Positions 6,092 to 48,255 of a stretch of 50,236 nucleotides of DNA are shown in pieces (the first letter of the stretch is position 1; every line of letters starts with the position of its first letter). Source of the stretch: Candidatus Halobeggiatoa sp. HSG11 (GTDB lineage Bacteria; Pseudomonadota; Gammaproteobacteria; Beggiatoales; Beggiatoaceae); the NCBI GenBank assembly GCA_030378105.1, contig JAUCGL010000018.1:1-50236 (forward strand). The letters are read 5' to 3'. The notes under the pieces were generated by a model, which worked only from the letters and a program-made list of their open reading frames with translations, did no database searches and had not been told where the DNA came from. A program made the translations under genes and the position numbers.

Positions 6092-6305
6092 CCAGTATAT
6101 TTTATATAACTCAATCTATTTTATGTAGATATATTAAGTGTTTTTTATTCGTAATTTAATTTATGTATAGAAAACTTAAATATCTACAAAAAATTGTGAT
6201 AGAATTATACCAATCAATTTAATATAGTATCTTCATATTCCAGCATATGACTTTACAACATATTAAGTGAATACAAATCAATTACTTTTATCTTGAGGTA
6301 AAAAT

Positions 6306-9300
6306 ATGAAAAAAACATTGTTTAAAACTTTTAGTATTTTAGCTGTATTAATAATCGTAGCTGTTGTTGCTTTTAATTTTTTTGTTGTTAAAAATATAGG
6401 CGGAACAGTTTATGTTGCTGTCGCCGGTCCTATGTCTGGCAAAGGAAAAGCAGACGGATTACAGATGGTACAAGGTGTTCAATTATACCTCGATAAAGTT
6501 AATCGGGAAGGTGGCATTAACGGTAAAAAAGTTAAATTGCTACCTTTTGATGATCAAAACGATAAAGAATTGGCTGAACAAATAGCCAAAGAAATTGTGG
6601 AACAAGATAAAGCTCACATAGTGCTTGGACATTTATACAGTTCTACTTCCACGCAAGCAGGAAAAATATATAAAAACGCTAAAATACCGGCTATTTCAGG
6701 TTCTGCTACAGCTGATAAAGTTGTCAAGGACAACAGTTGGTATTCAAGGGTCATTTTTGATAATCACACCCAAGCGGCATTTTTAGCAAATTATATCTTC
6801 AAAGTTCTTAATCAAGATACTATTAGTGTTATTTATGATTTAGATGATTATGGTAAATCTTTAGCTATGCCATTTATAAACACTTTTAATGGATTGGGTG
6901 GTAAAATTAAATTTTTATGGTCTTTTGATACTAAAAGTGAAACTATAGAACAAGATATTAGTAATATTGTTACTGATTTATCTAAGAAAAAAAATGATGA
7001 TCCGGGTGTAATTTTTCTAGCTACTCATGGGCAAGAAGCAGTGGACATAATTGTGCCAATGAAACGGCTTGGTCTTTCTTATCCAATAGTCGGTTCTGAT
7101 GCTATGGGTGGTAAAGGCTTTTCTATTAAGTTTAATGAATTTCCAGAAGAACAATCGGAACCGGGATATTTTACTGATGGTATCTATGCACCATCTCCAA
7201 TTTTATTTGATGTTGCCAACGAACGAGCTCAAAAAGTTCGAAATGAATACATAATTAAATATGGTGAAAATCCAAGCTGGAAAGCTATGAGTTATTATGA
7301 TGCAGCAATAGTTGCTGTTGATGCTATGAGAAAATCTAATGTAACCGGTTCCAATCTTGCTCAAGAACGTGAAGATATAAAAAATAACATATTATCAATT
7401 GATCACGTTAAGAAAGCAATTGATGGTGTTACTGGTAAACTTTACTTTGATATAGAAGGTAATGTAGTAAAACCTCTAGTTATGGGGACTTTTAACAAAC
7501 AGCAGTTAGTTTCTGCTTTAACTCAACTGCAAGTGGTAACAGATTTATCTCGAGTTTCTAATCTTAAACAAAAATTAGAAGACGAAAAAATTATAATTGT
7601 TCATAATAACTATATGGTTAAAACAAGAATTGTGTACGCCGGTATTGATATTAATGAGGTCAGTAATTTAAATATAAAAAACTCTTCATATTTGGTAGAT
7701 TTTTACCTATGGTTTCGCCATCAGGAAGGATTTGATAATACACAAATTGAATTTATTAATGCGGAAAAACCAATAAAACTAGGAAAACCAATAGCAGAAA
7801 TAATAGATAATGGTATGGTTTATAGTGCCTATCGAATTAAAGCTAAATTTAAGAGTGGGTTCCAATTTTTTGATTATCCATTCGATTTGCAAAATTTACA
7901 AATTAAGTTTCGCCATCCAAGCTTGACTAGAAAGAAGCTTATTTATGTAGTAGATGAAATTGGTATGCGTCAAATAAGCAATGAAGCTATTTTAAAAAAA
8001 TTAGCTAGGACTCAAGCATTTGAATCTATAACTGAGTGGTCAATACAATCGGCTAATTTTTATCAAGATGTTATGAAAAATGAATCAACTCTTGGTAATC
8101 CATTGCTTTTTTCCTCTAAAGCTCATATTGAATATTCAAGATTTAACTCTAATATTTTGATTAAACGGAGTATTATAAGCTTTATAGTTAAAAATATGTT
8201 ACCTGTAGTAATTCTTTTGGTATTGTCGTATGTAGTGTTTTTTATGTCGCCGAAAGACTTGACTCCAAGAATTGCTATAAGTCTTAATTCACTGTTAGCA
8301 GTGGCTTTTTTTCATTTAAAAATGTCATCTGCTTTACCGGGAATTGGTTATTTAGTTGCATTAGATTACGCATTTTATGCTATTTATATAATAATAGTTT
8401 TGGGACTTTTAATAACTCTTATTTCTTATAAATTACAACCAAAAGACAGTGAGGTAATAAAACCAAAAGTGAAACTGATTCTATTGGTTGGTAGAATTGG
8501 TTATCCACTTATATTTATAACTGTTGGTTTTTTATTTGCTAATAACTACGGAATGGTTAATTTAAATTTTTCCCAAGCAATTTCGTCCAAATCACAAATA
8601 GTAGACAATCCTGCTGAACCAACAGTCGCTAAAAAAGAACAAGTTACCACTTTAGTATTAAATGGTTGGGAAATTGATGCAATTGGAGAAGTTAAGCAAA
8701 TTTTAAATGATTTCCACCTTGAGCATCCAGATATCAATATAAAATATGTTCCTATTGTTTGGGAACGGTATATTTCTACTATAGAAAATCAGTTAGATGC
8801 AAGAAATGGAGGCGGAGGTGACTTACTATTTTTGGATTCTTTTTCATCATCATCCAGATGGTTTAAAAAATCATACTTGGAACCACTTGATGATTTGCCA
8901 TCAATTAGAACAAATTTTAAGGACAATGTATTAGAAGCATGGGCAAATGAAAAAAATAATTTATATGGAGTACCATTTTTAGCTATTACTGGTGCTGTTT
9001 TCTACAATACTAAGATTTTTGAAAAGCTTAAACTTGAAATACCAACAACATGGGAGGAATTATTAGTAACAGCTCAAACTATTAAAGATGCTGGCCATGT
9101 CCCATTTGCAAATGGAATTGGAGATGGTTGGGCTTTAAATGAAACTATTTTTCTTAATTTAGCTCCTAATTTTATTGGTGGGTATGAAGGTCGGTTGGAA
9201 TACTTGGCAGGAAATCGTTGTTTTAATGACGAACATAGTGTAGCAGTATTTCAGGCGTTAGCTGACTTAAAACCATTTTTACCTCCAAAACCTGAGACTG

Positions 9301-9866
9301 TAACTTATTACGATAGTCAAAATCTTTTCCAATATGATAAAGTGGCTATGTGGATAAATAATTCGTATGGTGTTTTATTTATGGGAGATGACTCTGATTT
9401 TGATTGGGATACTTTTGCTATTCCTCCTTTGAAAGGGCAACCAAGATATACTATTTTCCATACTGAAGCTGGTATTGGAATAAATGCCAATTCAAATCAT
9501 AAGAAAGAAGCTCGTGTTTTCTTAGAATGGTTATCAAATAAAGAAGCAGCAAACTCTATTGCTAACAAAATGCCTGGTTATTTTCCCATGCATAAGGAAT
9601 TGCCAAATATTGATAATAAACATGTTGAAAGTCTTTTATCTATTATAAATACTGCTAAGGGGACTGATGTTCGTTGGTCACTACCAATGTTAGATGAAGG
9701 GCTTCCTAATGCTTATTCACTCATGAATGACAATGCTGAAGCTATAATTTTGGGTACATTGACTCCGCAACAAGCAGCTAATAATTTGCAAAAAGGTTTG
9801 GCTGAATGGTTTGACCCTGCTCAAACATGTAATATGTCTAATGAAAAAGGTTTTCTTTCTTGGTAG
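6306..9866 (+). CDS. Fusion: periplasmic binding domain - pentameric ligand-gated ion channel - solute-binding protein
   Basis: A 1186-residue triple fusion. Residues 1-28 form a signal sequence or anchor. Residues 33-405 match the branched-chain-amino-acid/ANF type of binding protein (VAVAGPMSGKGKADGLQ..GVQL; LPFDDQND). Residues 437-610 look like the extracellular domain of a Cys-loop-type channel (VDFYLWFRHQ; YPFDLQNLQIKFRH), without the Cys-loop cysteines, as in prokaryotic members. Residues 620-745 hold four hydrophobic segments in channel order: M1 (IVKNMLPVVILLVLSYVVFF), M2 (TPRIAISLNSLLAVAFFHLK, then SSALP), M3, and M4 after GRIGYP. Residues 782-1186 form a MalE/SBP_bac_1-type binding protein (LNGWEIDAIGEVKQILNDF; GVPFLAITGAVFYNTKIFEKL; PTTWEELL). 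The channel C-terminus after M4 is extracellular in this family, so both binding domains would face the periplasm. GAGG precedes the start by 9 bp. Ligand and ion selectivity are unknown. Confidence 0.9.
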   Translation: MKKTLFKTFSILAVLIIVAVVAFNFFVVKNIGGTVYVAVAGPMSGKGKADGLQMVQGVQLYLDKVNREGGINGKKVKLLPFDDQNDKELAEQIAKEIVEQDKAHIVLGHLYSSTSTQAGKIYKNAKIPAISGSATADKVVKDNSWYSRVIFDNHTQAAFLANYIFKVLNQDTISVIYDLDDYGKSLAMPFINTFNGLGGKIKFLWSFDTKSETIEQDISNIVTDLSKKKNDDPGVIFLATHGQEAVDIIVPMKRLGLSYPIVGSDAMGGKGFSIKFNEFPEEQSEPGYFTDGIYAPSPILFDVANERAQKVRNEYIIKYGENPSWKAMSYYDAAIVAVDAMRKSNVTGSNLAQEREDIKNNILSIDHVKKAIDGVTGKLYFDIEGNVVKPLVMGTFNKQQLVSALTQLQVVTDLSRVSNLKQKLEDEKIIIVHNNYMVKTRIVYAGIDINEVSNLNIKNSSYLVDFYLWFRHQEGFDNTQIEFINAEKPIKLGKPIAEIIDNGMVYSAYRIKAKFKSGFQFFDYPFDLQNLQIKFRHPSLTRKKLIYVVDEIGMRQISNEAILKKLARTQAFESITEWSIQSANFYQDVMKNESTLGNPLLFSSKAHIEYSRFNSNILIKRSIISFIVKNMLPVVILLVLSYVVFFMSPKDLTPRIAISLNSLLAVAFFHLKMSSALPGIGYLVALDYAFYAIYIIIVLGLLITLISYKLQPKDSEVIKPKVKLILLVGRIGYPLIFITVGFLFANNYGMVNLNFSQAISSKSQIVDNPAEPTVAKKEQVTTLVLNGWEIDAIGEVKQILNDFHLEHPDINIKYVPIVWERYISTIENQLDARNGGGGDLLFLDSFSSSSRWFKKSYLEPLDDLPSIRTNFKDNVLEAWANEKNNLYGVPFLAITGAVFYNTKIFEKLKLEIPTTWEELLVTAQTIKDAGHVPFANGIGDGWALNETIFLNLAPNFIGGYEGRLEYLAGNRCFNDEHSVAVFQALADLKPFLPPKPETVTYYDSQNLFQYDKVAMWINNSYGVLFMGDDSDFDWDTFAIPPLKGQPRYTIFHTEAGIGINANSNHKKEARVFLEWLSNKEAANSIANKMPGYFPMHKELPNIDNKHVESLLSIINTAKGTDVRWSLPMLDEGLPNAYSLMNDNAEAIILGTLTPQQAANNLQKGLAEWFDPAQTCNMSNEKGFLSW

Positions 9867-10047: not shown

Positions 10048-13000
10048 ATGTTTAACATATTAAAAAATATCAGCGTTATTTTGTTATTGACCTTACCATT
10101 ATTAACAGAAAGTGCAACGATAGATGAACCAATCCTCCGCATAAACACCGATATGCACACGGACGCTATCACCAGTATTGATATTGATGCCAATGAACGT
10201 TTTTTGGTGACAGGTTCTAAAGATAAAACTATACGAGTGTGGTCTTTGCCCGAAGAATGGGATAAAAAAAATTTGGAAGGAGCTAAGTTAGAACAAGTCT
10301 TACGCCCACCTATTCAAGAAGGTTCTAATATAGGTCAAATTAATACAGTAGCAATTTCACCAGATGGTAAACAAATAATTGCCGGTGGTTGGGAAGGCTG
10401 TGAACAAGATATGGGTATGAGTTGTTCTATTTATATATTTAATAGGATAACTGGCAGATTGAAAAAACGCATATCTAATTTACCTGCTGAGGTTCTTCAT
10501 TTAACATTTTCCCCTTCAGGAAATGAGATTTTAGCTACTTTTGGAGAAAGTAGTAAAAATAAAGGAGAAGGAGTATATATTTACCATATTGTAGATGATA
10601 GAGTGACAAGTGAAAAACTTGAAGGAGAATATGGTGGTGCAAGCTATTGGGGAGAAATATTTGAAGATCCAAATAATCCTACGGCTAAACGAATCGTTAC
10701 AACATGTGAAGATGGAGCAATACGTTTGTATGATAAAAACCTTGATCCTGTAGCTAAATATAACACAAATGAAGATGGTATCTATCCATATATGGCTCGT
10801 TTCCATCCTTCAGGAGATAAAATTGCAGTAAGCCTAAAAAATTATAAACAAATTATTTTATTATCTGAATCAAAATCATCAAATATTAATCGAACATTTA
10901 CTGAACCACCTAAAGACCCGATTAAATCTAATTCTGGAAATGAAATAAATGGTTCTAAATTTTCATCCAATTTAGTTATTCTTGATAAACTTTCTATCCA
11001 AAAAGATGAAAAAGAATCTAAAGGATACGAAGGAGATTTATCTGTAATCAACTGGTCAATAGATGGAAATTGGTTATATGCTACTGGCTACAAATATCAG
11101 ATTGATGGAATTAGACCAATTTTACGTTGGTATAAAGGAAATAGTGAAAATGGTTATTTGGTTTGGCCTTCTATTGACGAAATTATTGAAATACTTCCCT
11201 TAAAAAATGATGTAGTTCTTTTTGGGGCTGAAAATCCAGCCTTTGGTATATTTGACTCTCGTGGTCAAAAAATATTGTATAATAGTGCTGAAACTGTAGA
11301 TTTTAATCAAAATAAAAAGATATTATATAACAATTATAAATCAAAGAATCGTACATACTTAAACGAATTCCAAACTAGCCAAAATGATTTATTATTATCT
11401 AAGGATGCTACTACAGTACAATTTGGTTATTCTGATCATCATGGTAAACGTTTAATTAGGTTTTCTATAAATAATCGTATTTTGTATGATATATTTGAAG
11501 AAAATGAAAAACTAAAACCATCTCGTACTTCAGGTGTGGAACTTTTTCAAAAAAATAGCTCTGTTCATAAGCTTACGAATGGTATATATATTTCTGATTT
11601 AAGATTAAATAATCAAAATATATTAAAAGGAGAGGAAAGTAAAACAGAAATTGTTCATAGTTTTTCTGTTACCTCTAGTTCTCAGAAATTTTTAATTGGT
11701 ACCAGTGAATATTTACGCTTTTTTAGTAACGATGGTATTCAACAGTGGGAAACAAAGATTTCATCACCAGCTTTACAAGTAAATATTGCTAGAAATGATA
11801 AAGTTGTTGTTGTAATTTTGAAGAGTGGTACCTTACGTTGGTATCGTCTTACTGATGGTGAAGAATTACTGTCTCTGTTTCCACATACGGACGGTAAACG
11901 TTGGATATTATGGACCTCTCTTGGATATTACGATACGTCTGTAGGAGGCGAAAAATTAATTGGCTGGCATGTTAACCTCGGACCAAATAAAGCTGCTGAT
12001 TTCTTTTCTGCTTCCCAATTTCGTAAGATTTATTATCGTCCTGATGTTATTAATAATGTTTTAGAAAAATTAGATATTGAAGAAGCATTGTTTGCTGCTA
12101 ATCAGAAAGCAAGTATGAAAATTGTTACCCCAGAAATTCATAATGTACTAAAACAAAAATATGACGTTGAAGTGGTTAACACAGTGTTACAAATGTTTAA
12201 TATTGATGAAGCTTTACACTTAGTTGCTCAAGAAATGGGATACTTGTCTACAGAGTTAATGAAAAAAAGACCAATTCAAGAGTTATTGCCACCTGTAGTA
12301 ACATATTTAAATAAATGCGATAAACCAAATAGTCAAAGATATACAAATACCATTATAAATGATGAGAATATATCATTTTCTAATCCAAATATTAAATTAT
12401 GTTATCGTATTCGCCGTCCCTCAGAAAAATATATAACGGCATTAAAAATATTGGTAGATGGGCGGCCATTAGGAGAAATACGTAAGGAACATTATACTAG
12501 AAATCATCATACTGATACCACTGAAAAAACTAAAGAATGTACTTCGCTTCCTAAAATTCGTACTACCAATAATCAAAAAAACGTTACAAGTAATGATAAA
12601 ATTGAAAACGATACTGCTGAAAATTTAGATAACTCTCGTGATATAGGTACTATTCTAGCTAGGAAATCCATTGATTGTGAATTACCTCAAAATGAAGAAA
12701 AAGAATATCACTTAAATATTACTTTACCTCAGAATGATGTAGAATTAGGTCTCATTGTTGAAAATAAGTTTGCTGCTTCTGATCCAGTAACTATTAACCT
12801 TAATTGGACCGGCAAAAAAGTTGAAAAAATTACCAAACCTAATCTTTATGGTTTAATAGTAGGTGTTAGTGAATATGATGACGAAACAGTCAGATTAAGA
12901 TATGCAGCTCAAGATGCAATTGATTTTTCTGAAGTCCTAAATAAACAAAAAGAATTATATAATAATATAGAAATTGAGTTATTAGCTAACGCTGATAAAG

Positions 13001-13662
13001 CACGAATATTAGAAGGTTTAAAGTGGATACGCAATAAAGCAACAATTAATGACGTATCTATATTGTTTTTTGCAGGACATGGTTACAATGATAATGAAGG
13101 ACAATATTATTTTTTACCTCGTGATGTAAATAAACATAATATTATAGAAACTAGTGTTGTATATCAACAAATTAAACAAAATGTTACTGCTTTACCAAGT
13201 AAAACCTTGTTTTTCATAGATACTTGTCATTCAGGGAATGTTATGGGAGGAGGTATTGTTGGTGGTTCTGTTGATGTGGACCGAGTTTCTAATGATTTAG
13301 CTAGTAGTGAAAATGGAATTGTTGTTTTTGCTGCTGCCACGGGAAAACAGTTAGCATGGGAAAACGAAAGTTGGGGTAATGGTGCATTTACTAAAGCTTT
13401 ATTAGAAGGTTTAGAAGGCGAAGCAGATTTAATTAGTGATGGAAAAATTAAGTTTTCTGAATTGAATACATATTTATCGGATCGAGTAAGTAAATTAACT
13501 GATGGTAAACAAACACCAACAACGGCAATTCCTAAAACTATTGCAGACTTTCCAATAGCCCTAATGGAAAATTATTCTCCTGAACAAAAAAAGCATAATA
13601 CTAACAAAGGTGGTAAAAGTCGTGGTGGAGATGACTTTGACACTCCAGAAGTAGGACAATAA
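10048..13662 (+). CDS. Exported WD40-repeat caspase-like protease (peptidase C14), active-site residues present
   Basis: 1204 residues. A Sec-type signal peptide covers about residues 1-23 (ILKNISVILLLTLPLLTESA). WD40-like repeats follow (ITSIDIDANERFLVTGSKD..IRVW; NTVAISPDGKQIIAGG), forming one or two propellers to about residue 600. A module around residues 619-690 (WILWTSLGYYDTSVGGEKLIGWH; ASQFRKIYYRPDV) is shared with the next gene. The caspase-like domain begins near residue 931 (NLYGLIVGVSEYD). The catalytic dyad is visible: His1011 in FFAGHGYN (codon 13078-13080) and Cys1060 in FIDTCHSG (codon 13225-13227). Bacterial caspase homologues (orthocaspases/metacaspase-like) usually cut after basic residues. 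The predicted export is notable. GGAG precedes the start by 6 bp. The partner and substrate are unknown; the neighbouring paralogue lacks the catalytic His. Confidence 0.9.
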   Translation: MFNILKNISVILLLTLPLLTESATIDEPILRINTDMHTDAITSIDIDANERFLVTGSKDKTIRVWSLPEEWDKKNLEGAKLEQVLRPPIQEGSNIGQINTVAISPDGKQIIAGGWEGCEQDMGMSCSIYIFNRITGRLKKRISNLPAEVLHLTFSPSGNEILATFGESSKNKGEGVYIYHIVDDRVTSEKLEGEYGGASYWGEIFEDPNNPTAKRIVTTCEDGAIRLYDKNLDPVAKYNTNEDGIYPYMARFHPSGDKIAVSLKNYKQIILLSESKSSNINRTFTEPPKDPIKSNSGNEINGSKFSSNLVILDKLSIQKDEKESKGYEGDLSVINWSIDGNWLYATGYKYQIDGIRPILRWYKGNSENGYLVWPSIDEIIEILPLKNDVVLFGAENPAFGIFDSRGQKILYNSAETVDFNQNKKILYNNYKSKNRTYLNEFQTSQNDLLLSKDATTVQFGYSDHHGKRLIRFSINNRILYDIFEENEKLKPSRTSGVELFQKNSSVHKLTNGIYISDLRLNNQNILKGEESKTEIVHSFSVTSSSQKFLIGTSEYLRFFSNDGIQQWETKISSPALQVNIARNDKVVVVILKSGTLRWYRLTDGEELLSLFPHTDGKRWILWTSLGYYDTSVGGEKLIGWHVNLGPNKAADFFSASQFRKIYYRPDVINNVLEKLDIEEALFAANQKASMKIVTPEIHNVLKQKYDVEVVNTVLQMFNIDEALHLVAQEMGYLSTELMKKRPIQELLPPVVTYLNKCDKPNSQRYTNTIINDENISFSNPNIKLCYRIRRPSEKYITALKILVDGRPLGEIRKEHYTRNHHTDTTEKTKECTSLPKIRTTNNQKNVTSNDKIENDTAENLDNSRDIGTILARKSIDCELPQNEEKEYHLNITLPQNDVELGLIVENKFAASDPVTINLNWTGKKVEKITKPNLYGLIVGVSEYDDETVRLRYAAQDAIDFSEVLNKQKELYNNIEIELLANADKARILEGLKWIRNKATINDVSILFFAGHGYNDNEGQYYFLPRDVNKHNIIETSVVYQQIKQNVTALPSKTLFFIDTCHSGNVMGGGIVGGSVDVDRVSNDLASSENGIVVFAAATGKQLAWENESWGNGAFTKALLEGLEGEADLISDGKIKFSELNTYLSDRVSKLTDGKQTPTTAIPKTIADFPIALMENYSPEQKKHNTNKGGKSRGGDDFDTPEVGQ

Positions 13663-13982: not shown

Positions 13983-13988
13983 ATGTTT

Positions 13989-16900
13989 ATGTTTAATAAT
14001 TTTAAGTCCTTTATTTTTATTATTTTTCTTGTAACACCAATGATATCATTCTCATTAGTAAATGAGAAACCGGTGATTAAAATTAATCCAAGTATGCATA
14101 TTGGAGAAATAACTGATATAGCGGTTGATCCATTAGAACGTTATATGGTTACTAGTTCAAAAGATAAAACAGTACGTGTATGGACTTTACCAGAATTAAA
14201 GTTAAGACGAGTACTGCGTTTGGATAAAAATGTTGAAGGGCCAATTCATGCTGTGGCAATTTCTCCAAACGGAAAAGATATAGTAGTTGGTGGTCGAACT
14301 GGTTGTGATGTTGAAGGTAAAAATTGTGCTATCTATTTATTTGATTATATGACCGGGAAATTGAAAAAAACTGTTCATGGAATTCCTGGTGATATTCGTA
14401 CTTTGTCCTTTTCACCTGATACCTATGGTAGATATTTATTAGTTACCCATGAAGTGTCCGAAGCTCAAAAAGAAGATAAAGAACGGAAAAATTCTTTAAT
14501 TATTTATCGAACTTTAGATTACAGTAATATACAGGCATTTGATAATGAAAAAGACAAATTAAAAGAAGACAAATGTAAAACTTATATAAATCATGCTGAA
14601 TTTAATACACATGGTCATTTAATAACAACATGTTCGGATAATTATGTTCGTTTGTATGATAGTAATTTTAATCTTTGGAAAAAAGATGATATTACCAAAA
14701 AAAAATATGATGATTACTTGGATAACAATAAGGATTATATGATTAAACGATACATTGGAATTAATTCCTCTTTATTGCCAGGAGAATGGAAAGATTGGAA
14801 AAAAGAATTTTTTAATAACGATAAACAAAACAAATATAGTTGGATGCCACGTACAGCACGATTTTCAAAATCAGGAAAAAAGCTTGCGATAAATTTTATA
14901 CAAGGATTAATTATTATCAATATACCAAAAAAAGATAAACCAGCTCAACAAAATGAAAATTTATTGTTTAATGATGTAGATCTAGTTATTCAAGAAGACC
15001 CAAATTATAACGCATGGTTAGTAGGTGATATTGTTTGGTCAGAAAATGAAAATGTAATATATGCAGCAAGAGATTATTCTCCAACTTTATTACGTTATTC
15101 TCTGAAAAAACATTCTAAAAATCTATTTAAATTTGATACTGATACTGAATATAGTGGTAGCTTATATGAGGATATAAACATTTTGATGAATGGTTCTGTT
15201 ATCATCAAAAGTAGAAATAATTTTAGTTTAGTAGATGGGAATTTATTTGAACAGTTTAAAAAATTAGATAACCAAGTGAATATTAGTGACAAAGTATCAG
15301 ATAATGTTGAGATAAACGAGGTCTCTAAAGAATCACCAAGAAAAGTATTAGCTATAACAATAGGGAAAGATCAGGATAAAGAAGGGCAAAAAATTCCTGC
15401 TGATTTAATTAATAGTAATATAATACCACAAATTGGTATTAATTATTTAGAAATTTCAGATGATGATAATAGTATAAAATATAATGCTTTTGGTAATGAC
15501 TATTGTCTTTCTCTTAAAAATCAACGTAAATTAACAAAAGGGAATTGTGTTAGTATTATAGAACAAACTAATGGCAGTATTCTGAAAAATGTCAAACATT
15601 CATTTGATGATTTTTATATTGATTCAAACGAAGATTACATGTTGTTAGGAGGAGCAAATAAGGGAAAAAATGTTTTCATGATATTTGATGATAAAGGTGA
15701 AAAAAAGTTGGATGAACTGAGTGATGATAAAATTACTGATGTTAGTTTAAATGGTGGTAATGGGCTGTTTACATCAGGATTTGCTGGATTTTTTACAGAA
15801 AAACAAACGAGAAAACAAGAAGAACAAACAGAAAATCAGGCAGAAGAGCAGATAGAAAAAATCTTATATGGGTATAGTTTGGATGAAGGTAAAAAAATTC
15901 TGGAATATAATTTTAAAACAAAAAAAATTAAACTATTCTTTCTGGAGAATGGAGAACCTATATCTCTAAATAATTCAGAAGAAACTTCAATAAAAGCTTT
16001 AGAAGTTGTTAATAATAAATTAATTATCATAAAATTAGATGATAATAAAATACAAAGTTATCGCTTAACAGATGGTAAGTCATTGTTATTGGATGATAAT
16101 GCTGATAATAGCAAAGTTTATACAGAATATCATATCACACCAAGTCAAGAAACTTTGGTATTTGATTCTCTACCAAAACAACAAGTAATATTGAAAGGAC
16201 ATGGGGCAAAATTAAGCTCTGATGGAAAACAGATTATTACTATATCTGAGGATACTGTATCTGAGAAGGATATTGTTATTTTATGGGATTCCATAACAGG
16301 GAAAAGACTTGGAGGACCAATATCTCATACAAATGTTAACAGTGCAACATTTAACCATACTGGAGATCGTATTATTACTATATCTGATAATAACACAACT
16401 GCTAAAGTATGGAGTTTAAAAACAAGTGATTCTACTTGGAAAGAAGAAACATTTACTGGTAAGACAAATTTTGATAATAAAAACATTATTAAAGCGAAAT
16501 TTAGTCCTAAAGGAAAGTATATTATCGTTCGGTATAGAACTCCTAAAGATAAAAAGATAACTATTAGTTTATTTAATTCTGAAGATGGAAAATATATTAA
16601 AGATATTCATTCTGAAATAGAATCTAAAAATGAAATTTACACATACTTCACTCCTGACGGAAAGTATGTTGTTTTAGAATATACTGAAAAAGAACACAAA
16701 AAGATTTCCTTATGGAATTCTAACGATGGAAAAGAAAAATTATCTGATATAGATAAAATTAAATTTAGTCCTGATGGAAAAAAGTTTATAACAGTATCTT
16801 ATGGCAAAGAAAATAAGGGTGCAGATGTTAAGTTATGTTCAGAATTTAATTGTACAAAATTAAATATTAAAAGTAAAATTGAAAATATTAAAAGTAGAAT

Positions 16901-19900
16901 TGATGATATTAAGTTTAGTTCCAATCGTATATTTACAACTTCTGGTAAGGCTATCTATCTGTGGGATAATGAAATTATAACAAGCACTGATGATGAAAAA
17001 AACATAAAAAATCCTAAAGCAAGAATTTTTGATTATTCTGATGCAGAATTTAGTCCTGATGGAAAAAGAATAGTTGCCAAAAAAAATAAAATCTTCTATT
17101 TGTTTGATTCAATTGATGGGCGGCAATTAATCAATTCTCTTTCCAACGGTGAAGGAAATAATGATTACGTTAGGTATTTTTTCTCTAAAAACAGTGAATA
17201 TATTATTACAATTACAATAAGTGGGAACGATAATGATGGATATTTATGGGATGCTAAAGATGGAAGTTTGATTAAAAAACTTAATCATACTTCATATTAT
17301 GAAGGAGTAACTTTTAGTTCTGATGATAATTTTATTACTCAATCTAATAATGGTCATTATTATCTTCATACAAATAACAAAGAAGATAAAGATAGCGATG
17401 GCAAAAAATTATTAAATATAGTCTCTGGTTCTATTTATTTTAGCTCTGATGATAAATATATTATGCATCAAAGTCCAGGCTACAGAACAACCTTGTTTAA
17501 TAGAGAAGGACGACAAATTCACATATTTCCCAATACTGATAGTGCAGAATTTGTATCTGGTAATAATATATTGCTTCAAGAAAATGATGGTATTGTTAAG
17601 TTAATAAAAATTAACAATATTTATGATAACAATGCTGATATACATGACATTGTGGAGACAAAAATAAATAGAACTTTAGTTATTAGTCCAGATGGAAAGT
17701 ATATTCTTACAATATTGAGGAATAATATTGCTCAGTTGTGGGATACTATTAGTGGAAAACAAATTACCAAGCTAATAGGCCATAAAGATATTATTTTAAG
17801 TGCAGATTTTAGCTATGATGGTAAATACATTGTTACAGCATCAAAAGATAATACTGCCCGTATTTGGAACACAACTGGAAAGGAAATTCGCAAATTAATT
17901 CATAAAGAAGCTGTTTTAAATGCACATTTTGAAAATAATGGACAAAGGATTGTTACAGTATCAAAAAATAAAATTGTGTATTTATGGGATCAAGATTATG
18001 ATGATGATGATAAACTTGAAATTAAAGAAGAAAAAGTACCAATTAATAAATTAGTAACTCATACAGATACTGTCTTTGATGCAACTTTTAGTCATGATAA
18101 CCAATACATTATTACAGCATCAAAAGATAACACTGCTATTTTGTGGAATATAGGAGATGATGAGAAAAATATTATATTATCTGGCCATAATAGTGTTGTT
18201 TTAAATGCAAGTTTTAGTTATAACGATGAATATATTATTACCGCATCAGAAGATACTAATGCTATTTTATGGAATAAAAAAGGAGAACAAATTGAAAAAT
18301 TACCTCATGACGCTCCTGTTTTAGATGCAAGTTTTAGTAACAATGGTAAATATATTGTTACGGTATCAAAAGGCGAAGCTAATATTTGGAGTATTACTAT
18401 TACTGAAAATGAAAAAATTGAAGTAAAGAAAATTAAACCATTAGAGCATAAAAATGGTAATGTTTTAGATGTAAAATTTAGTCATGATAATAAACACATT
18501 ATCACAGTATTAGACAATAATCAGACTGAGCTTTGGGGTATAAACGGTGATCATAAAAGAACACTATCCTTTCCCGATAAGCAGACTGTCCATAATGCAG
18601 TATTTAACCCATCTGATGATGAACAAATCGTTATAGCATCTTTTAGTGCAATTACTAATGTTGCTGATCTAATGAAAATTAAAATATCAGAGAATAAAGA
18701 AGCACGACATTGGGATTGGGATGTTGATTTTAATTCTGATGAGAGCCTTCTTGCCTTAGCCGCCGGTGAAGATGGAGTTCTTTTATGGGATATGAAGAAT
18801 AAACAACATTACGATACTATAGAGCATCCTAATGATGGAATTGTGGCTGTAGCCTTTAGTCATGATAATAAACTTATTGCTTCGGGAGGTTTTAGTGGAA
18901 AAGTTTATTTATGGGAAATTGGAAATAATGAACCACTAATGAAATCAGATGAACATTCTAATGTTATTGTTAGTTTGGCTTTTACTTCTGATGGTCAATT
19001 TCTAGCTTCAGCAGATGTTAATAATAAAATATTTTTGTGGGATATTAAAAACAGAAATATACTTTATAAAAAACCATTGGAAGGTGAATTTACCAAGGGG
19101 GGTATTTATAGATTATCTTTTAGTTCAGATAATAACATCCTCGTTGTGGGTCGTGGTAAAGAAATATTATTGTGGGACATTGAAAATAAGCAAAAGTTTA
19201 GAGAACCATTGGTTGGACATTCAGGTATAGTAAAGAGTGTTACTTTTAGCCCCAATGGAGAAACTCTAGCTTCAGCAGATGAAAATGGAGAAATATTATT
19301 ATGGAATTGGAACAATATTATTAAGGGACAAGATGATAATGCAAAAAAAACACCACAATACAAAAAATTACCAACAGGAGATTATGATAGTCGAGGTTTA
19401 GCTATTGCTTTTAGCCCTGATAACGAAACGTTAGTTTCTTCGTCTAATAGTGGAGAAATATTGTTTTGGGATGTTAATAAAAGGACGTTACGACATAATA
19501 CTAAAACTGATAACAATCGCAGTGCCACTGGTTTAGTAGTTTTTAGTCCAGCCAAAGATAGTAGTAGAGAAACGGTAGCTTTTACAATAGGTTCTCGTGG
19601 AGATTTTGCAAAATTAATAGAATATGACTCATCTTTTGATAATGTTAGTTTATCGACTACTACTGATAATAATTTTCAGGATAATGATTATAATAAGTAT
19701 TTTCAGAATAAAGATGAAGGTATTTTAAATTTAAATAAAGAAACATTTTTAACTATAAGTTCTGATGGTGAGATGTTAATTACTCAATCAAAATCTAATG
19801 AAAATCTTGGAAGAATATGGAAAACTTCCGATGGCGAATTAGTTAAATCACTAGATAAAATCAAATATGCCGCTTTTAGCAATAATGGTAGAAATATAAT

Positions 19901-22900
19901 ATATATTGATGATAATTCGGTTAAAACATTTAAAATAAGCGATAATAATGAAGAAGACAATTTATTGTTGTGTGTGACTGGAAATGATGATAAACCTGAC
20001 AAAGATAGTTCGTCAGATATGATTGGAAGTAGTACTGGTATGACTAAAAATGAAGATGAGCAATCTAAATGTCCTGATTATGCTGCTATTAGTAACGATA
20101 ATAAAGTTATAATAGGTTATCATAATGGGGATAATTTTAAGTTTAGTGTTATTATTAAAAGAGAAAAAGAAGGAACTATTAAAAAACCTATTTTTGATGG
20201 CAAAATTGACAATGCTGGCAGCACAGAAATTCTTTATGCTCAGTTCAGCAAAGATAGTAAATTTTTAATAATGAATTCTAAAGATACTATATTCATTTTT
20301 GATATAGAGAATGTGAATGAGGAGCAAAAACTAAAGTTAGTTGATACTAGACGTTTAGAAAATAATACTATATCTAGCGTAAGTTTTGGTGATGATAATA
20401 GATTTATAAATGTTTTTTTCAAGGAAAATGCTCAAGGAGAGAAATTTTTGCAACAACAAACTTTTTTTTATAATTTCAGTATGTTTAATAAAGATGGTAA
20501 ATTAAACTGGCGAAAACCTATACCATCAACATTGTTTAGTGAATTTGAAACTGACTATATTGGTAGTAACAATGAAAATGATCATATATCTATTATAAAA
20601 ACAAATGGATATTATAATTTTTATAATCTTAATGATGGTACAAAATTATTTGATAATGCAGAGGATGATAAAGAGAACGTAACACATTATGCTATAGTTC
20701 CATCTGATAAAAATGATGTTCAAGGTAAAGATTTAATATTGTATACAGATAAACATGAAGATTGTAAGGTAGCTTATTCTGATGAAAAAGATGCTAAAGA
20801 TGAAACATGTACAAATGCTAAAAATTTGACACTGAATAAAGTTGGTAAAGATACTTATAAACTAACTATTCCAACAAATATCAAAAATAAAGGTTTTGAT
20901 GTAGCTGATATTCAACCTGCCGGTAATAACACAATTGTTATAACTTCACAAGATGATATTGAACGTTATTTAACCTATGATAATTCAAATACTGATAAGC
21001 CTGTTGAGCTAAATGTCTTTAAGGAGATGGAACCAGGATATAGTGTTTCTGCTATTACTCCAAATAATGAACTTTTACTAAGTACATCATCAGACAAAGA
21101 TGGTGTATTTTTGCATTTATATGAGAAAAGTGAAGAAAAATGGAAGAAAAAAATACCATTTAAAGCCAATAACATCAAAGTTAATTCTGATGTAGTTGTA
21201 TTAAATTTACAAAATGGTACATTAAATTGGCGTAGTATAAATGATGGTGAAGAGTTATTTACTTTATTTCCTTATGTGGATGAGGTACAGAATTTAGATT
21301 GGATATTATGGACACCAAGAGGTTACTACGATTCATCTGTCGCCGGAGAAAATCTTATTGGTTGGCAAATTAATCATGACGCAAATACAGCTCCAGAGTT
21401 TTTTGTTGCTTCTCAGTTTCGTAAATATTACTATCGTCCTGATGTAATTAGCCAAATTTGGGAAAAGAAGCAACAAGATGAAGTAGTATTATTTTCAGCT
21501 AATCAAAGTTCTAAATATGTGCCAGAAGTAGAACCAGAAATTAGAAAATTATTAACAACTTATTACCCGCATGATGTTGTGGATAATATATTAACAGCAT
21601 TCAATGTAGAGAATGCTTTAAAATTACTAAATAAAGAGAAAGGTTATTCCATACCTTCTAAATTGCAAACTCAATACGATATTCAAGAATCATTACCTCC
21701 AGTAGTTACTTTATTAAATATTGATGATGAATGTGCTGTTGAAGATTATGATGTGGAATCCGAAAGTTTAACAAAAGATAAATATGGAGAATTTAATGAC
21801 CTAACTAAATGTTATACTCCCAAACATGTCAAAAAAGATAGTGGATTATTCCAAGAAAATAAGCGAGAAAAAATAATTGACCATGATTTTTGCTTTTCTA
21901 AAACTGACATAGATTTGTATTATAGTATTCGTCATCTATCTGATGAACCTATTACTACATTAAAAGTATTAGCAGATGGTCGATTATTAGGAAAAGTGTA
22001 TAACAAAAAAAATCGTGACACAAGTAGTAAACTTACTCAAAAAAGATTATGTGACTTACGACCAGAAATAAAGACTGAAGATAAAGTAAAAAAATACCTT
22101 TCTGTTAACTGTGACTTAAGTCAAAATGACTACACTCTTCGTGTTTCATTGCCACCACGTGATGTAAATATTAGCCTAATTGCAGAGAATCGCTTCGCAG
22201 CTTCTGAACCGGTTACAATTCGCTTACATTGGAATGGTGATAATAATAATCTTTATTTATTGGCAGTTGGAACTGAACAAGGAAAGGCTTCTAAAAAAAT
22301 AATAACTACTGCCGAAACTGAACAAAAGGTTTATGAAAAAATAACTACTGCCGAAAAAGATGCAATTTGTTTTGCTGAGACTATGAAACTGCAAGAAGGT
22401 AAATTGTTTGATAAAGTAAATATTAAATTATTACAAAGAGTTGATGGTCATCCAGAAATAACATGGTTAGTTGGAAAAAATAACCAAGCTATGGCCAGTA
22501 AAAAAACTATACTAAATGGTTTAAAATGGTTAGAAAAAAATACAAAAGTTAATGATGTAGCTATACTGTTTTTAGCAGGTAGTGGTACTCAAGGAAAAGA
22601 TGGACAATATTATTTTTTACCTCGTAATCTTGATAAAGATAATATAACTGATACAGCTATTTCCTATAGAGATATTACAAAAACAATGGCATCTTTATCT
22701 GGTAATAGTTTAATTTTTGCAGATGTTTGTTATAAAAACATTTTTGACTATAAATCTACTATTCATAATCCAATAATTACTAATGAAATGGCTCAGTCTA
22801 AAAATGGAGTAACAATATTTGCTGCCAATAATAAGAAATGCGGAAATATTTCAGATAATACAGAAAATGGTATTTTTACTACTAATTTATTGGATGGATT

Positions 22901-23542: not shown

Positions 23543-25153
23543 ATGAATTTTATATATTTTAAGTTAATCGTTACTACGTTGTTTTTTATGATTAGTTATT
23601 GTGAAGCAAATGATAACAAATCCCAAATTCAAAACACTAAACATGAAACAATAAGAATAGCTTTAGGACAAAATGTCAATACTATTGATCCAAGTTTAGC
23701 AAGACAAGAACAGGATTTTGAAATTATTGAACAGCTATTTTTAGGCTTAACAGATTTTGAACCTACTACCTATAATGTAATTCCAGAGTTTGCAATAAGT
23801 TGGAAAGTAAATGATGATAATACGATTTATACATTTAAACTACGTCAGGATGTCAAATGGACAAATGGAGAACCGGTAACTGCACATGATGTTGTATGGA
23901 CAATTAACCATAATCTCATTCAATCTCCTCGCTTATATAAAATGCTTTATATAATTAAAAATGCCAAGGCAATCCGTAAAGGAGAATTATTACCACTGGG
24001 AGTCAATGCTATAGATGATTATACAGTAGAATTTGAATTAGAATATGCCGCTGGTTATTTTCCTGCGATGGTAAGTATGTCGGTATATCGTCCTTTACCA
24101 AAGAACGTTGTTAAAAAATATGGTAATGATTGGACTAAATTAGAACATATTCAAACTAATGGTTCTTATTATCCAATTAATTGGAAACAAGGTAAAAGTA
24201 TCACTTTGGAGAAAAATTTACAATATTATGATGTACATCAAGTTCAAATACAAAAAATACAATACTTTATTATTTCCAATGCTGTATTAGGGTTTGCCAT
24301 GTATAAACATGATGAACTAGATATAATAGGTGGTAATTCTACATTACCTCGTGATGAAATGCCTTATATCAATTTTAACGCTAATCTACGTAGAGAATTA
24401 CATAATACCAAAAAATTTAAAACTTTATTTTATGGTTTTAATACTAAAAACCCTCCAATGGATAATAAATTAGTCCGTAAAGCAATTTCAGCAGCTATTA
24501 ATAAGCAAATTATTAATGATTTTGTTGTTTGGAATAATAATACAATAGCTAATACTTTTACTCATCCTTCTACTTTTGGTTCAGTTGAACCACAACAACA
24601 AGTAGGCGTTCAATTTGATCCTAAACAAGCAAAAAAATGGTTATTACAAGCTGGCTATAATGATAATGAATTTCCTAAAGATGTTGTTTTAATATCCCCA
24701 GATGAACCAACTAAATTAAGTATTGCTAATGCTATCAAAATTATGTTAAAACGTTATTTAAATATTGATATTAAAATACAAAAATATGGACGAAGAGATG
24801 ATAAAAAAACTTTTGATATACATATTTTTTATCATACATGGACGGGAGATTATCCAGATGCAAATAATTGGTTATATGAAACATTCCATCCTAAATTTGG
24901 TTATTATTCTAAAAAATTAGGTTGGAGTAATGATGAATTTACTGAGGTAGTAGAAAAAGCTCAACAAATAACAGAACAAACTGAAAGAAAACGTCTTTAT
25001 CACAGGGCAGAGCAAATTATTACCGAAGAAGAGGCTGCCATAATACCTATTTATTTTACCAATGCTCCTATACTTGTAAAATCTAGAGTAAAGGGATGGT
25101 ATCATATGCCATTTGGTGGACAGCATATTCGAGATTGGAAATTGGAGAATTAA
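23543..25153 (+). CDS. Periplasmic oligopeptide-type solute-binding protein (SBP_bac_5 family)
   Basis: 536 residues, normal for the DppA/OppA class. A signal peptide covers about residues 1-23 (IYFKLIVTTLFFMISYCEA). The family pattern is clear: IRIALGQNVNTIDPSLARQE near the N-terminus, then FEIIEQLFLGLTDF, YTFKLRQDVKWTNGEPVTAHDVVWT, and KLVRKAISAAINKQII. These proteins bind peptides, nickel or other solutes and normally deliver them to an ABC transporter. No permease or ATPase gene is present nearby. Instead the gene is followed after 2 bp by a binding-protein/channel fusion, so the two are almost certainly co-transcribed. No clear ribosome-binding site precedes the ATG. The fit with the family is strong; the ligand is unknown. 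Confidence 0.9.
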   Translation: MNFIYFKLIVTTLFFMISYCEANDNKSQIQNTKHETIRIALGQNVNTIDPSLARQEQDFEIIEQLFLGLTDFEPTTYNVIPEFAISWKVNDDNTIYTFKLRQDVKWTNGEPVTAHDVVWTINHNLIQSPRLYKMLYIIKNAKAIRKGELLPLGVNAIDDYTVEFELEYAAGYFPAMVSMSVYRPLPKNVVKKYGNDWTKLEHIQTNGSYYPINWKQGKSITLEKNLQYYDVHQVQIQKIQYFIISNAVLGFAMYKHDELDIIGGNSTLPRDEMPYINFNANLRRELHNTKKFKTLFYGFNTKNPPMDNKLVRKAISAAINKQIINDFVVWNNNTIANTFTHPSTFGSVEPQQQVGVQFDPKQAKKWLLQAGYNDNEFPKDVVLISPDEPTKLSIANAIKIMLKRYLNIDIKIQKYGRRDDKKTFDIHIFYHTWTGDYPDANNWLYETFHPKFGYYSKKLGWSNDEFTEVVEKAQQITEQTERKRLYHRAEQIITEEEAAIIPIYFTNAPILVKSRVKGWYHMPFGGQHIRDWKLEN

Positions 25154-25155
25154 AG

Positions 25156-27462
25156 ATGTCTAAAATATTCTATGTAATAATTTTCCTTATTTTAGGTTTA
25201 GCAGTTTTCCTATTGCAAAAATATTCCGAACCATATTATATTGCTGTTGCCGGGCCAATGACAAATATTAATGGTGAAGCTATGCAACAAGGTGTTCAAT
25301 TGGCTATTGATGAAATTAATAAAAAAGATGGTATTAATGGTAGACAAATTAAATTAAAAATTTTTGATGATCAAAATGATCCAAATATTGCCATAGAAAA
25401 AGCTAAAGAAATAATCAAAGGAAAGTATCTTGCTGTTATTGGACATTATACCAGTGGAACCTCTTTAGCAGCAGCAGAAATTTATAAAAAACATGGTATT
25501 CCAGCTATTTCAGGTTCGGCAACTTCTGATGAGTTAACTAAAGGAAATGATTGGTATTTTAGAGTTATTTTTAATAATAGTGATCAGGGAGCTTTATTAG
25601 CTTATTATATTAAAAAAATTCTTAAGAGAGACAAAGCTAGTATTATTTTTGACAGTGATTCATATGGAGAAAACTTAGCAAAAACTTTCTTACAAACGGC
25701 CAAAATGATTGATTTAAAAATTAAAAATCAATGGTGTTTTATTGGTGATAACGGTGGAAATTGTCCTGCTGAACAAAATTTTGCTGATACTTTAAAACTA
25801 GTTAAGAACTTAAATGCAAAAAAAACTGGTATTATATTTCTTGCTACTCATTCAGAAGAAGCAGTGAAAATTATCAAAGCAGTACGAAATAAAAATAACA
25901 GATTTCCTATCATTGGTGCAGATTCATTATCCAGTACAGCATTTTATGATTTAATTCGCAATGATACATTAGAAAAATATCAAAAGGGTTATTATACTGA
26001 TGGTATTTATGTAATAGCTCCATTTTTGGAAGATTTAGCCGGTAAACGTGCCATTGATTTTAAACGAGCTTTTTCGACAAAATATAACAAGAAAAAACTT
26101 TCTGCAACTTCCATCGTTTATTATGATGCAACTCAAGTTATTTTACATGCACTTAAGCAACTATCTTCAGAGACAATAACATATAGTTTAATAGAAAAAC
26201 GAACTCAATTAAAAGAAAATTTATGGAAAATTTCAAACCATCATCAGGCAGTTGAAGGAGTTACCGGACCTATTTACTTTGATAGAAACGGGGATGTTGA
26301 TCAGTCTATACCAATAGGTGTATATGAAAACGGTAAACCAACAGTTGCTTTATCTCAATATCGCAGTAAACATTTAACTCAAGAACAATCCCAAGCAAAA
26401 CGTATTTTACCAGAAGTTTTTGAAGGCAATCTCATAAAAGTTAATGGTAAATTCAGAAGCAAAGCAGAAGTTGTTTATGTGGGAGTTGAATTTAATAAAA
26501 TAACTCAACTAAAAACCAAAGAATCCAGTTATATGATTGATTTTTATATTTGGTTTCGTTCTAAAATTGATATGGATAAATCTGAAATAGATAAATTATT
26601 TTTAGATGAATTTGGTATAAATACAACTACATTTGATAATAAAATCCACTTTGATGCGAACCAAATTGAATTTGTTAATATTGTTGATGTTAAAGCCGGA
26701 CAATTAACCAATTCTAAAATGGCTGATATAGATCGTACCATAACTGATGAAAAAATTATTACAAAAACTTACCGAGTCAAAGCTAAATTCAAAGGTGATT
26801 TTGATTTTCATAGATATCCTTTAGACCGCCAAACCTTGTCCATTCAATTAAGACATCAAAATAAAGAACGCAACAGTCTAATTTATGCTGTAGATACTCA
26901 AGGTTTAAAAATGGATGAACTTAAAGAAAGAGTTAAAAATAATAATATTGTGGCATTAAATGGTTGGCAAGTTCATGATATTGCACTATTTGAAGATATT
27001 CAGAAAATAGACTCAACCTTTGGTTTTCCCAAATATTTCAACTTACAACGTCAATTGGAATATTCTCGTTTAAACATCGAAATAGAAATTGAACGCCATG
27101 TATTCAGTTTTTTTTGGAAAAATCTGTTTCCTAATATGTTAATTATAGTACTTGGATATGGAATATTTTTTATTAAAGCATTCGCTACTCAAATGGCATT
27201 GGGAGTTAATTTAATATTACCAACTTCTATATTGCATATCAGACTGTCTTCTGAACTACCAATGTTAGCTTATTTCACTTTATTGGAATATACTTTTTAC
27301 CTAATTTACTTCTTAGCAGTTTGCTCTTTACTTATGGTTGTTACTATGCATTTTCACGAAGAAGATGAAAGAAACTATAAACGTACTCAAAATATCATGC
27401 TTGCAGGGAGAATTGGTTATCCTATTGTAGTTTTTGTTGGTTGCTTTCTGATATTTTTTTAG
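25156..27462 (+). CDS. Fusion: periplasmic binding domain - pentameric ligand-gated ion channel
   Basis: 768 residues from the ATG at 25156, chosen because GGAG lies 8 bp upstream and the protein then begins with a hydrophobic anchor (IFYVIIFLILGLAVFLL). An upstream in-frame ATG at 25096 lies inside the preceding gene. Residues 25-410 form a branched-chain-amino-acid-type binding domain (IAVAGPMTNINGEAMQQGVQ; KIFDDQND). From about residue 436 the channel ligand-binding fold follows (MIDFYIWFRS; YPLDRQTLSIQLRH), with an extended loop rich in acidic residues. M1 starts near residue 648 (FFWKNLFPNMLIIVLGYGIFF), then M2 (TQMALGVNLILPTSILHIRL, SSELP), M3, and M4 after GRIGYP. It ends directly after M4, unlike the paralogue at 6306, which continues into a second binding protein. 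Its partner binding protein is instead the separate gene 2 bp upstream. Confidence 0.9.
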   Translation: MSKIFYVIIFLILGLAVFLLQKYSEPYYIAVAGPMTNINGEAMQQGVQLAIDEINKKDGINGRQIKLKIFDDQNDPNIAIEKAKEIIKGKYLAVIGHYTSGTSLAAAEIYKKHGIPAISGSATSDELTKGNDWYFRVIFNNSDQGALLAYYIKKILKRDKASIIFDSDSYGENLAKTFLQTAKMIDLKIKNQWCFIGDNGGNCPAEQNFADTLKLVKNLNAKKTGIIFLATHSEEAVKIIKAVRNKNNRFPIIGADSLSSTAFYDLIRNDTLEKYQKGYYTDGIYVIAPFLEDLAGKRAIDFKRAFSTKYNKKKLSATSIVYYDATQVILHALKQLSSETITYSLIEKRTQLKENLWKISNHHQAVEGVTGPIYFDRNGDVDQSIPIGVYENGKPTVALSQYRSKHLTQEQSQAKRILPEVFEGNLIKVNGKFRSKAEVVYVGVEFNKITQLKTKESSYMIDFYIWFRSKIDMDKSEIDKLFLDEFGINTTTFDNKIHFDANQIEFVNIVDVKAGQLTNSKMADIDRTITDEKIITKTYRVKAKFKGDFDFHRYPLDRQTLSIQLRHQNKERNSLIYAVDTQGLKMDELKERVKNNNIVALNGWQVHDIALFEDIQKIDSTFGFPKYFNLQRQLEYSRLNIEIEIERHVFSFFWKNLFPNMLIIVLGYGIFFIKAFATQMALGVNLILPTSILHIRLSSELPMLAYFTLLEYTFYLIYFLAVCSLLMVVTMHFHEEDERNYKRTQNIMLAGRIGYPIVVFVGCFLIFF

Positions 27463-48193: not shown

Positions 48194-48255
48194 TAAAAAC
48201 TCCCCGAGTTCCAATAGTATATATCAATTAATTAAACGCACCACTTCATTGATAA

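Follow-up and report, generated by a model that had tools for sequence, protein, structure and literature searches.

A ligand-gated channel-fold protein with a binding domain at each end in Candidatus Halobeggiatoa

Bacterial pentameric ligand-gated ion channels (pLGICs) are related to nerve receptors and serve as models for them, but their own ligands and roles are hardly known. To our knowledge, GLIC has no extra domain, and neither GLIC nor DeCLIC carries a module after the transmembrane helix M4. Here we describe a gene within a 50,236-nt stretch of Candidatus Halobeggiatoa sp. HSG11 (contig JAUCGL010000018.1; the window) that encodes, in one chain, a LIV-type binding domain (LIVBP), a pLGIC core and a family-1 solute-binding protein (SBP). 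The window protein shares its core with GLIC. The extra domains of DeCLIC are two jelly-roll lobes rather than binding proteins of the families found here (PMC9897478).

The closest described relatives are bacterial pLGICs from organisms such as Magnetospirillum and Bradyrhizobium, in which an N-terminal PBP-I domain is fused to the channel core, as in the window protein (Tasneem et al. 2004, PMC549065). The first-pass annotation had stated that prokaryotic channels bearing a binding domain at the N-terminus were already known, and this source bears it out. The parts of that paper available to us also report Cache fusions and stand-alone PBP-II genes adjacent to channel genes, propose that these partners cooperate, and describe no C-terminal PBP-II fusion. 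Such a fusion is a covalent form of the proposed cooperation and appears to be new: in the open-access literature we found no pLGIC with a C-terminal binding protein, a result that does not prove absence.

Two other kinds of membrane protein invite comparison. In the ABC importers GlnPQ and OpuA, SBP domains are covalently attached to the membrane protein, up to two per chain; these tethered SBPs feed a transporter, whereas the window protein contains no permease or ATPase. An assignment as the SBP of an ABC importer finds no support in the neighbouring genes: single-sequence searches with the permeases of two loci harboring free SBP relatives (L079 and L080) found no MalF/MalG-type match either in the window or at the remaining channel loci (E 1e-5). 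Such a permease may be encoded elsewhere in the genome. Ionotropic glutamate receptors have a pore of the potassium-channel type. NMDA receptors resemble the window protein in combining PBP-I, PBP-II and a pore in one chain, a parallel of evolutionary interest given the same kinds of building block around a different pore, but in NMDA and AMPA receptors and in GluR0 the pore is inserted into PBP-II (PMC549065). The PBP-II of the window protein is instead whole and tethered after the pLGIC; with its SBP domain continuous, positioned after M4 and not interrupted by pore helices, the window protein does not match ionotropic glutamate receptors in this feature.

A three-part gene and its recurrence

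The gene (Table 1) is an uninterrupted open frame of 1186 codons whose ATG lies six bases downstream of GAGGT (6295-6299), its predicted ribosome-binding site. The first 35 residues may form a signal peptide or membrane anchor. Searched as a whole protein against Pfam, the translation matches Peripla_BP_6 at residues 34-364 (E 3.9e-39, 135.7 bits against a cut-off of 31.7) and SBP_bac_1 at residues 797-1082 (E 7.8e-32, 111.9 bits against 26). The channel profiles named in the first-pass annotation also align where expected, but below their Pfam cut-offs: Neur_chan_LBD at residues 497-590 with 18.0 bits (cut-off 26) and Neur_chan_memb at 632-704 with 23.9 bits (cut-off 28.1). Likewise, all ligand-gated channel matches in NCBIfam fall below cut-off (LGIC_1 E 3.5e-13), and among 12 relatives three matched Neur_chan_LBD and five Neur_chan_memb at E <= 0.01. 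Such a cut-off gauges a match to the profile model and does not define the pLGIC family.

We therefore tested the core by profile search and fold comparison. A profile built from the 12 relatives matches GLIC as its best hit, over positions 38-341 of 358 (E 1.6e-21). In a predicted model of the entire 1186-residue chain (mean predicted local distance difference test score, pLDDT, 68.5; predicted template-modelling score, pTM, 0.42), the SBP domain is full-length and the best 50 rows of a fold search are all binding proteins. That outcome does not speak against the channel, whose core we therefore folded separately. The resulting model (pLDDT 69.5, pTM 0.60) shows ten strands and four long helices, and its best 50 Foldseek rows are GLIC, GluCl, GABA-A and glycine receptors or chimaeras of these. 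In VIA-align it superposes on GluCl with Z 17.9 (290 residues, 4.3 A) and on GLIC with Z 17.1-17.3; all 1000 chains passed to VIA-align scored Z >= 8. M1-M4 are predicted at residues 623-645, 649-676, 681-709 and 718-747, with pLDDT <50 in parts; by hydropathy alone, M1, M3 and M4 are visible and M2 is not. The previously noted motifs DFYLWFR (465-471) and YPFDLQ (524-529) are present and lie in the extracellular domain (ECD). Together, Pfam, the predicted folds and the profile search support the order of binding domain, pLGIC and second binding protein first read from the gene, and we are close to certain that it encodes a real three-domain protein of pLGIC fold.

To look for the same order elsewhere, we searched for two short peptide patterns in a genome collection described as covering 84,980 species (24 loci returned) and complemented this with a search of 42 genomes from the window's own family. 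That second search listed more than 150 matches, of which 60 regions were fetched by class and score, so that all counts given here describe a sample (loci carry an L prefix). The sample contains 11 distinct proteins with the order LIVBP, ECD, transmembrane domain (TMD) and SBP, in eight genomes. Six of these genomes belong to the window's own family: the genome of the window itself has two copies (the window protein and L052), one Parabeggiatoa metagenome-assembled genome (MAG) has three (L064 and two in L066), and L026, L065, L067 and L068 have one each. The others come from MAGs labelled Anaerolineae (L071) and Pseudanabaenaceae, a cyanobacterium (L076); the contig of the Anaerolineae copy is 4.7 kb long and may be mis-binned. 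In L026 the contig stops shortly before the 3′ end of the gene. L069 carries a further, twelfth copy, which is interrupted by a stop and was left out of the trees.

This recurrence bears on whether two genes were merged by a sequencing or assembly error, the outcome that would have undone the first-pass annotation. Nothing in the window copy points to such an error, the stop in L069 being the nearest thing to it. That 11 distinct proteins from eight assemblies share this order within a single frame, the others being 40-62% identical to the window protein, excludes it, and we rejected a two-gene or frameshift artefact, which retains virtually no probability. In addition, free relatives of the SBP begin with a hydrophobic export segment or a lipobox (judged by eye, 15/15 loci), which in the fused proteins is replaced by M4 and a polar linker.

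How the fusion arose is less clear from the trees. The SBP tree does not reject a single clade of fused SBPs, nor does it show one (approximately unbiased test, p-AU 0.437; 11 versus 16 sequences). In the LIVBP-plus-ECD tree the fused sequences do not form one group, and the fused label needs four changes. These topologies may be compatible with loss, gain or transfer of the fusion alike. The tandem pair in L066 (614-4171 and 8861-12514) is uneven along its length, with amino-acid identities of 59% (LIV-type domain), 79% (ECD), 72% (TMD) and 87% (SBP), and 60, 85, 82 and 84% at third codon positions in the same order. This pattern points to exchange or gene conversion in the 3′ region, or to a LIV-type domain of foreign origin.

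Binding modules and sister channels

The N-terminal domain matches LivJ in the PDB (4gnr, E 2.2e-24) and is modelled with pLDDT mostly of 75-94. S112, T135 and D265 of the window protein align with LivJ S79, T102 and E226, with Asp replacing Glu; we take these LivJ residues to be the ones that contact the amino acid. Across the 11 fused proteins the Ser is present in 11, the Thr in eight and the Asp in seven. The domain would sense an amino-acid-like solute.

PDB and NCBIfam matches of the C-terminal domain are sugar binders, namely RafE, the chitin-oligosaccharide protein NagB (NagB2) and xylo-oligosaccharide proteins (XylA), and its ligand is probably a saccharide. The free relatives of this SBP, found at 15 loci (ten from Chloroflexota, four labelled Desulfobacteraceae or Deltaproteobacteria, one from a spirochaete), adjoin MalF/MalG-like ABC sugar permeases in eight cases. 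In five others the neighbour resembles the HAMP histidine kinase of L088, the locus in which the kinase and HAMP domains were confirmed by Pfam. The five kinase-adjacent SBPs group with that of L087 (support 100/98), whose contig ends before the downstream neighbour. Because free relatives adjoin sensor kinases, this SBP clade has probably been drawn into signalling outside channels as well. Beside the free SBP of L083 we found neither a permease nor an L088-like sensor; that gene (L083:5818-8091) contains the domain in two tandem copies, the second cut by the locus end.

A second channel system in the window pairs a family-5 SBP gene with an LIVBP-pLGIC gene that ends after M4 without a C-terminal SBP (Table 1). 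The two open frames overlap, and translation of the channel may in fact begin at an internal ATG (25156) just 3′ of the SBP gene. This arrangement is common: 21/27 unfused channels, compared with 0/8 fused genes, have a family-5 SBP gene upstream in the same orientation (Fisher p 1.3e-4), with 12/21 overlapping and spacings of -70 to +465 nt, measured between open frames from stop to stop. The test was limited to genes preceded by 1.5 kb of sequence or more and thus omits L078 (932 bases), the fused L026, L052 and L071 (<300 bases) and L129. Its p counts related genes, whose clades are not independent draws, and overstates the case because the unfused genes adjacent to SBP_bac_5 sit in one group of 25 sequences (SH-aLRT, an approximate likelihood-ratio support, 100; 21/25 with the neighbour). 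Even so, a partner SBP that is usually separately encoded seems to have been built into the fused channel.

SBP_bac_5 and OPT transporters both indicate peptides, which makes peptides the first candidate ligands for the sister channels. Among the ten of 32 flanking genes that we ran against Pfam, three encode OPT oligopeptide transporters and none an ABC permease. These OPT genes follow the channel gene of an SBP_bac_5 and LIVBP-pLGIC pair at a spacing of -46 to +4 nt (L099:5637-7484, L105:2591-4336 and L108:2935-4653), in operons that may couple peptide sensing to peptide uptake.

Proposed mode of action

We propose, with moderate confidence, that the window protein is a self-contained receptor channel whose tethered SBP substitutes for the separate SBP of its sister channels and tunes gating. 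Five chains would build a pLGIC pore in the inner membrane, with a LIV-type domain and its amino-acid-like solute atop each extracellular domain. A tether of ~33 residues would join M4 to the C-terminal SBP, which would lie in the periplasm and sense a second solute, probably the saccharide. There the SBP would act in cis as the SBP_bac_5 protein would for the sister channels: once liganded, it would lean on the extracellular or LIV-type domains and shift gating, and the channel would report solutes as ion flux. pLGIC C-termini are extracellular and SBPs are periplasmic, and it is from such family knowledge that we take the pentamer, the pore, the periplasmic C-terminus and the placement of both binding modules; ligands, docking, gating, stoichiometry, ion selectivity and physiological role are what we infer beyond it. 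Dual-nutrient gating, as suggested from the gene at the outset, is plausible, and the ten binding modules then counted per pentamer need not be the full number, the canonical pLGIC interface sites being further possible ligand sites. Because the chain brings its own putative binding partners, the sensing question becomes addressable with one gene, and the classes of ligand are indicated. The covalent fusion also suggests that SBP genes beside other bacterial pLGICs encode functional partners.

The linker between M4 and the SBP spans 28-40 residues in the ten fused proteins aligned. Of eight pairs compared, the tandem L066 pair has linkers 76% identical and the remaining seven only 9-44%; two unfused relatives (L051 and L066_13465) terminate at the first linker residue. 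With similar length and dissimilar sequence, and low model confidence (Table 1), it is probably a flexible tether. A long, flexible linker would also suit an SBP that merely concentrates solute, capturing it and releasing it next to the orthosteric site of the channel itself, with neither docking nor allosteric force. Concentration of solute by the PBP and Cache domains of bacterial pLGICs was put forward by Tasneem et al. 2004 (PMC549065). However, the LIV-type head resembles binders of one ligand class and the SBP those of another, so delivery of a shared agonist is not obvious, and we think this explanation unlikely.

Whether the core still conducts can be approached through the residues that couple its domains. 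The Pro-loop Pro and Asp, the pre-M1 Arg and the M1 Pro are characteristic of pLGICs; the window protein has them as P525, D527, R621 and P633, and they are intact in 11/11 fused proteins. Pro525, Asp527 and Arg621 are present in all 38 fused and unfused channels sampled, compared with 0/35, 1/35 and 1/35 homologues in which the same head precedes an MscS-type pore (see below). Trp469 and Arg471 of DFYLWFR, by contrast, occur in 38/38 and 35/35. These counts omit two unclassified sequences, L058 (truncated at a contig end) and L129 (pore unmatched by the references). The coupling residues thus track the pLGIC pore and appear to be kept where that pore must be gated, which argues that the pore of the fused proteins is still gated by the ECD. 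A non-conducting receptor, whose pLGIC part relays conformational signals rather than ions, would fit the variable length and charge of the M2 region: near its inner end there is Arg or Lys in the window protein (TPR), L064 (TSR), L071 (SPR) and L076 (APK), while in the other seven fused proteins the region is two residues shorter, with a Glu in the loop before the inner end. Comparing this region across the 11 fused proteins gave no call on ion selectivity. Against such a receptor stand the intact coupling residues and the lack of any cytoplasmic output domain in the window protein by Pfam, and we judge it very unlikely.

Several observations weigh against a tethered SBP that tunes gating. 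The whole-chain model is of modest confidence, and domain placement is unreadable from it. Six of the 27 unfused channels have no SBP neighbour, so the SBP is dispensable for some of them or encoded elsewhere. Three unfused sequences (L051, L066_13465 and L078) are placed near fused ones in the tree. The SBP is also less conserved than the channel core in two comparisons, at 58% against 67-69% identity between the window protein and L064, and 71% against 87-88% between L052 and L065. The window SBP retains 56 of 79 columns fixed in 16 free SBP sequences, differing at 23. Position 1021, a Trp in free SBPs, is Tyr in the window protein and Trp in L064, L071 and L076, but neither in 7/11 fused proteins. 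The fused SBP may therefore have changed its ligand or lost it, and these last three observations would suit a relic or structural module. Yet the SBP is full-length in 10/11 fused proteins, the eleventh being cut by a contig end; it is the best conserved module of the tandem L066 pair, where the LIV-type domain is the least alike; and the Anaerolineae copy retains 73/79 of the fixed columns. A ligand-free SBP is accordingly improbable in our estimation, and we retain the receptor channel with a working tethered SBP as the preferred reading.

An MscS-type pore behind the same head, and other genes

In 35 sampled sequences, the LIVBP-ECD head lacks M1-M4 behind it and leads instead into different transmembrane helices and an MscS domain. 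Thirty-four fall in one group (support 97) and one, L062, lies on a very long branch; the count includes L134_6965, with a broken frame, and L122, which is cut, and Pfam was run on three of the 35. A cyclic-nucleotide-binding (cNMP) domain is present in 21/35, and at nine loci two MscS-type genes stand in tandem, one with this domain and one without. Seven such genes belong to the window's own genome (Table 1) and many to its relatives (L116-L135). In a draw of 398 genomes from the phylum, 22, the own genome among them, match an ECD-plus-helix query from one of these proteins at E <= 1e-12, a count that rests on this match rather than on downstream domains and includes some partial matches.

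By this comparison the LIVBP-ECD head is a portable sensor. The MscS pore family is known as heptameric, and a head from a pentameric receptor on such a pore poses a symmetry riddle that is arguably more surprising than the three-part channel. In the open-access literature we found no report of an MscS pore topped by the extracellular domain of a pLGIC.

A broader and more tentative scheme, possible but not the one we would expect to prevail, would unite these proteins: one LIVBP-ECD head serves two unrelated pores, pLGIC or MscS, the latter often under cyclic-nucleotide control, and an SBP either in trans (peptide) or in cis (sugar) lets the pLGIC versions sense a second nutrient. The fused form would then be a coincidence detector for amino acid and saccharide. 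If true, it would turn nutrient chemistry into ion flux without a second messenger, within a modular receptor system of giant sulfur bacteria and their relatives.

The window's own genome (5.2 Mb) has at least 17 genes with a pLGIC-type ECD, comprising two fused, six plain, seven MscS-type and two others. The last two are a pLGIC-like gene behind a dCache domain and two hydrophobic stretches (L063:2942-4933) and a short pLGIC-like gene of 373 aa (L056:10490-11608).

Table 1. Coordinates of the three-part gene, its domains, the sister system and MscS-type genes of the same genome (window positions unless a locus is named)
Feature	Position	Strand	Details
Three-part channel gene	6306..9866	+	1186 aa; stop included in coordinates
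N-terminal hydrophobic segment	6306..6410	+	Residues 1-35; hydropathy peak at residues 10-28
LIV/LivJ-type periplasmic binding domain (PBP-I, Peripla_BP_6)	6405..7475	+	Residues 34-390
pLGIC extracellular beta-sandwich domain (ECD)	7593..8168	+	Residues 430-621; DFYLWFR, Pro-loop YPFDLQ, pre-M1 Arg621
pLGIC transmembrane domain (TMD), M1-M4	8169..8546	+	Residues 622-747
Linker after M4	8547..8645	+	Residues 748-780; pLDDT <50 over 731-778
Family-1 solute-binding domain (PBP-II, oligosaccharide type)	8646..9839	+	Residues 781-1178
Sister-system family-5 (peptide-type) SBP	23543..25153	+	536 aa; Pfam SBP_bac_5 E 1.3e-65
Sister-system LIVBP-pLGIC	25096..27462	+	Ends after M4, without C-terminal SBP
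MscS-type gene, own genome	L056:4915-8283		
MscS-type gene, own genome	L057:4121-7522		
MscS-type gene, own genome	L057:7656-10763		
MscS-type gene, own genome	L059:4706-7624		
MscS-type gene, own genome	L060:4147-7077		
MscS-type gene, own genome	L061:3224-6178		
MscS-type gene, own genome	L062:2275-5532		

Other genes of the window include two adjacent large WD40 proteins between the two channel systems (10048-13662 and 13983-23279, plus strand; 1204 and 3098 aa), the first with a caspase domain by Pfam. An open frame at 11-448 consists largely of near-identical 11-residue repeats (NNYLQKRKVLV). On the minus strand, a gene for a stand-alone OpuAC-type glycine-betaine-binding protein (47333-48214) overlaps the start of a BCCT gene (45657-47348; both by Pfam), with no ABC permease seen beside it in the window's list of frames. 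BCCT carriers normally have no binding protein, as far as we know; the OpuAC-type protein may be one that serves this BCCT carrier.

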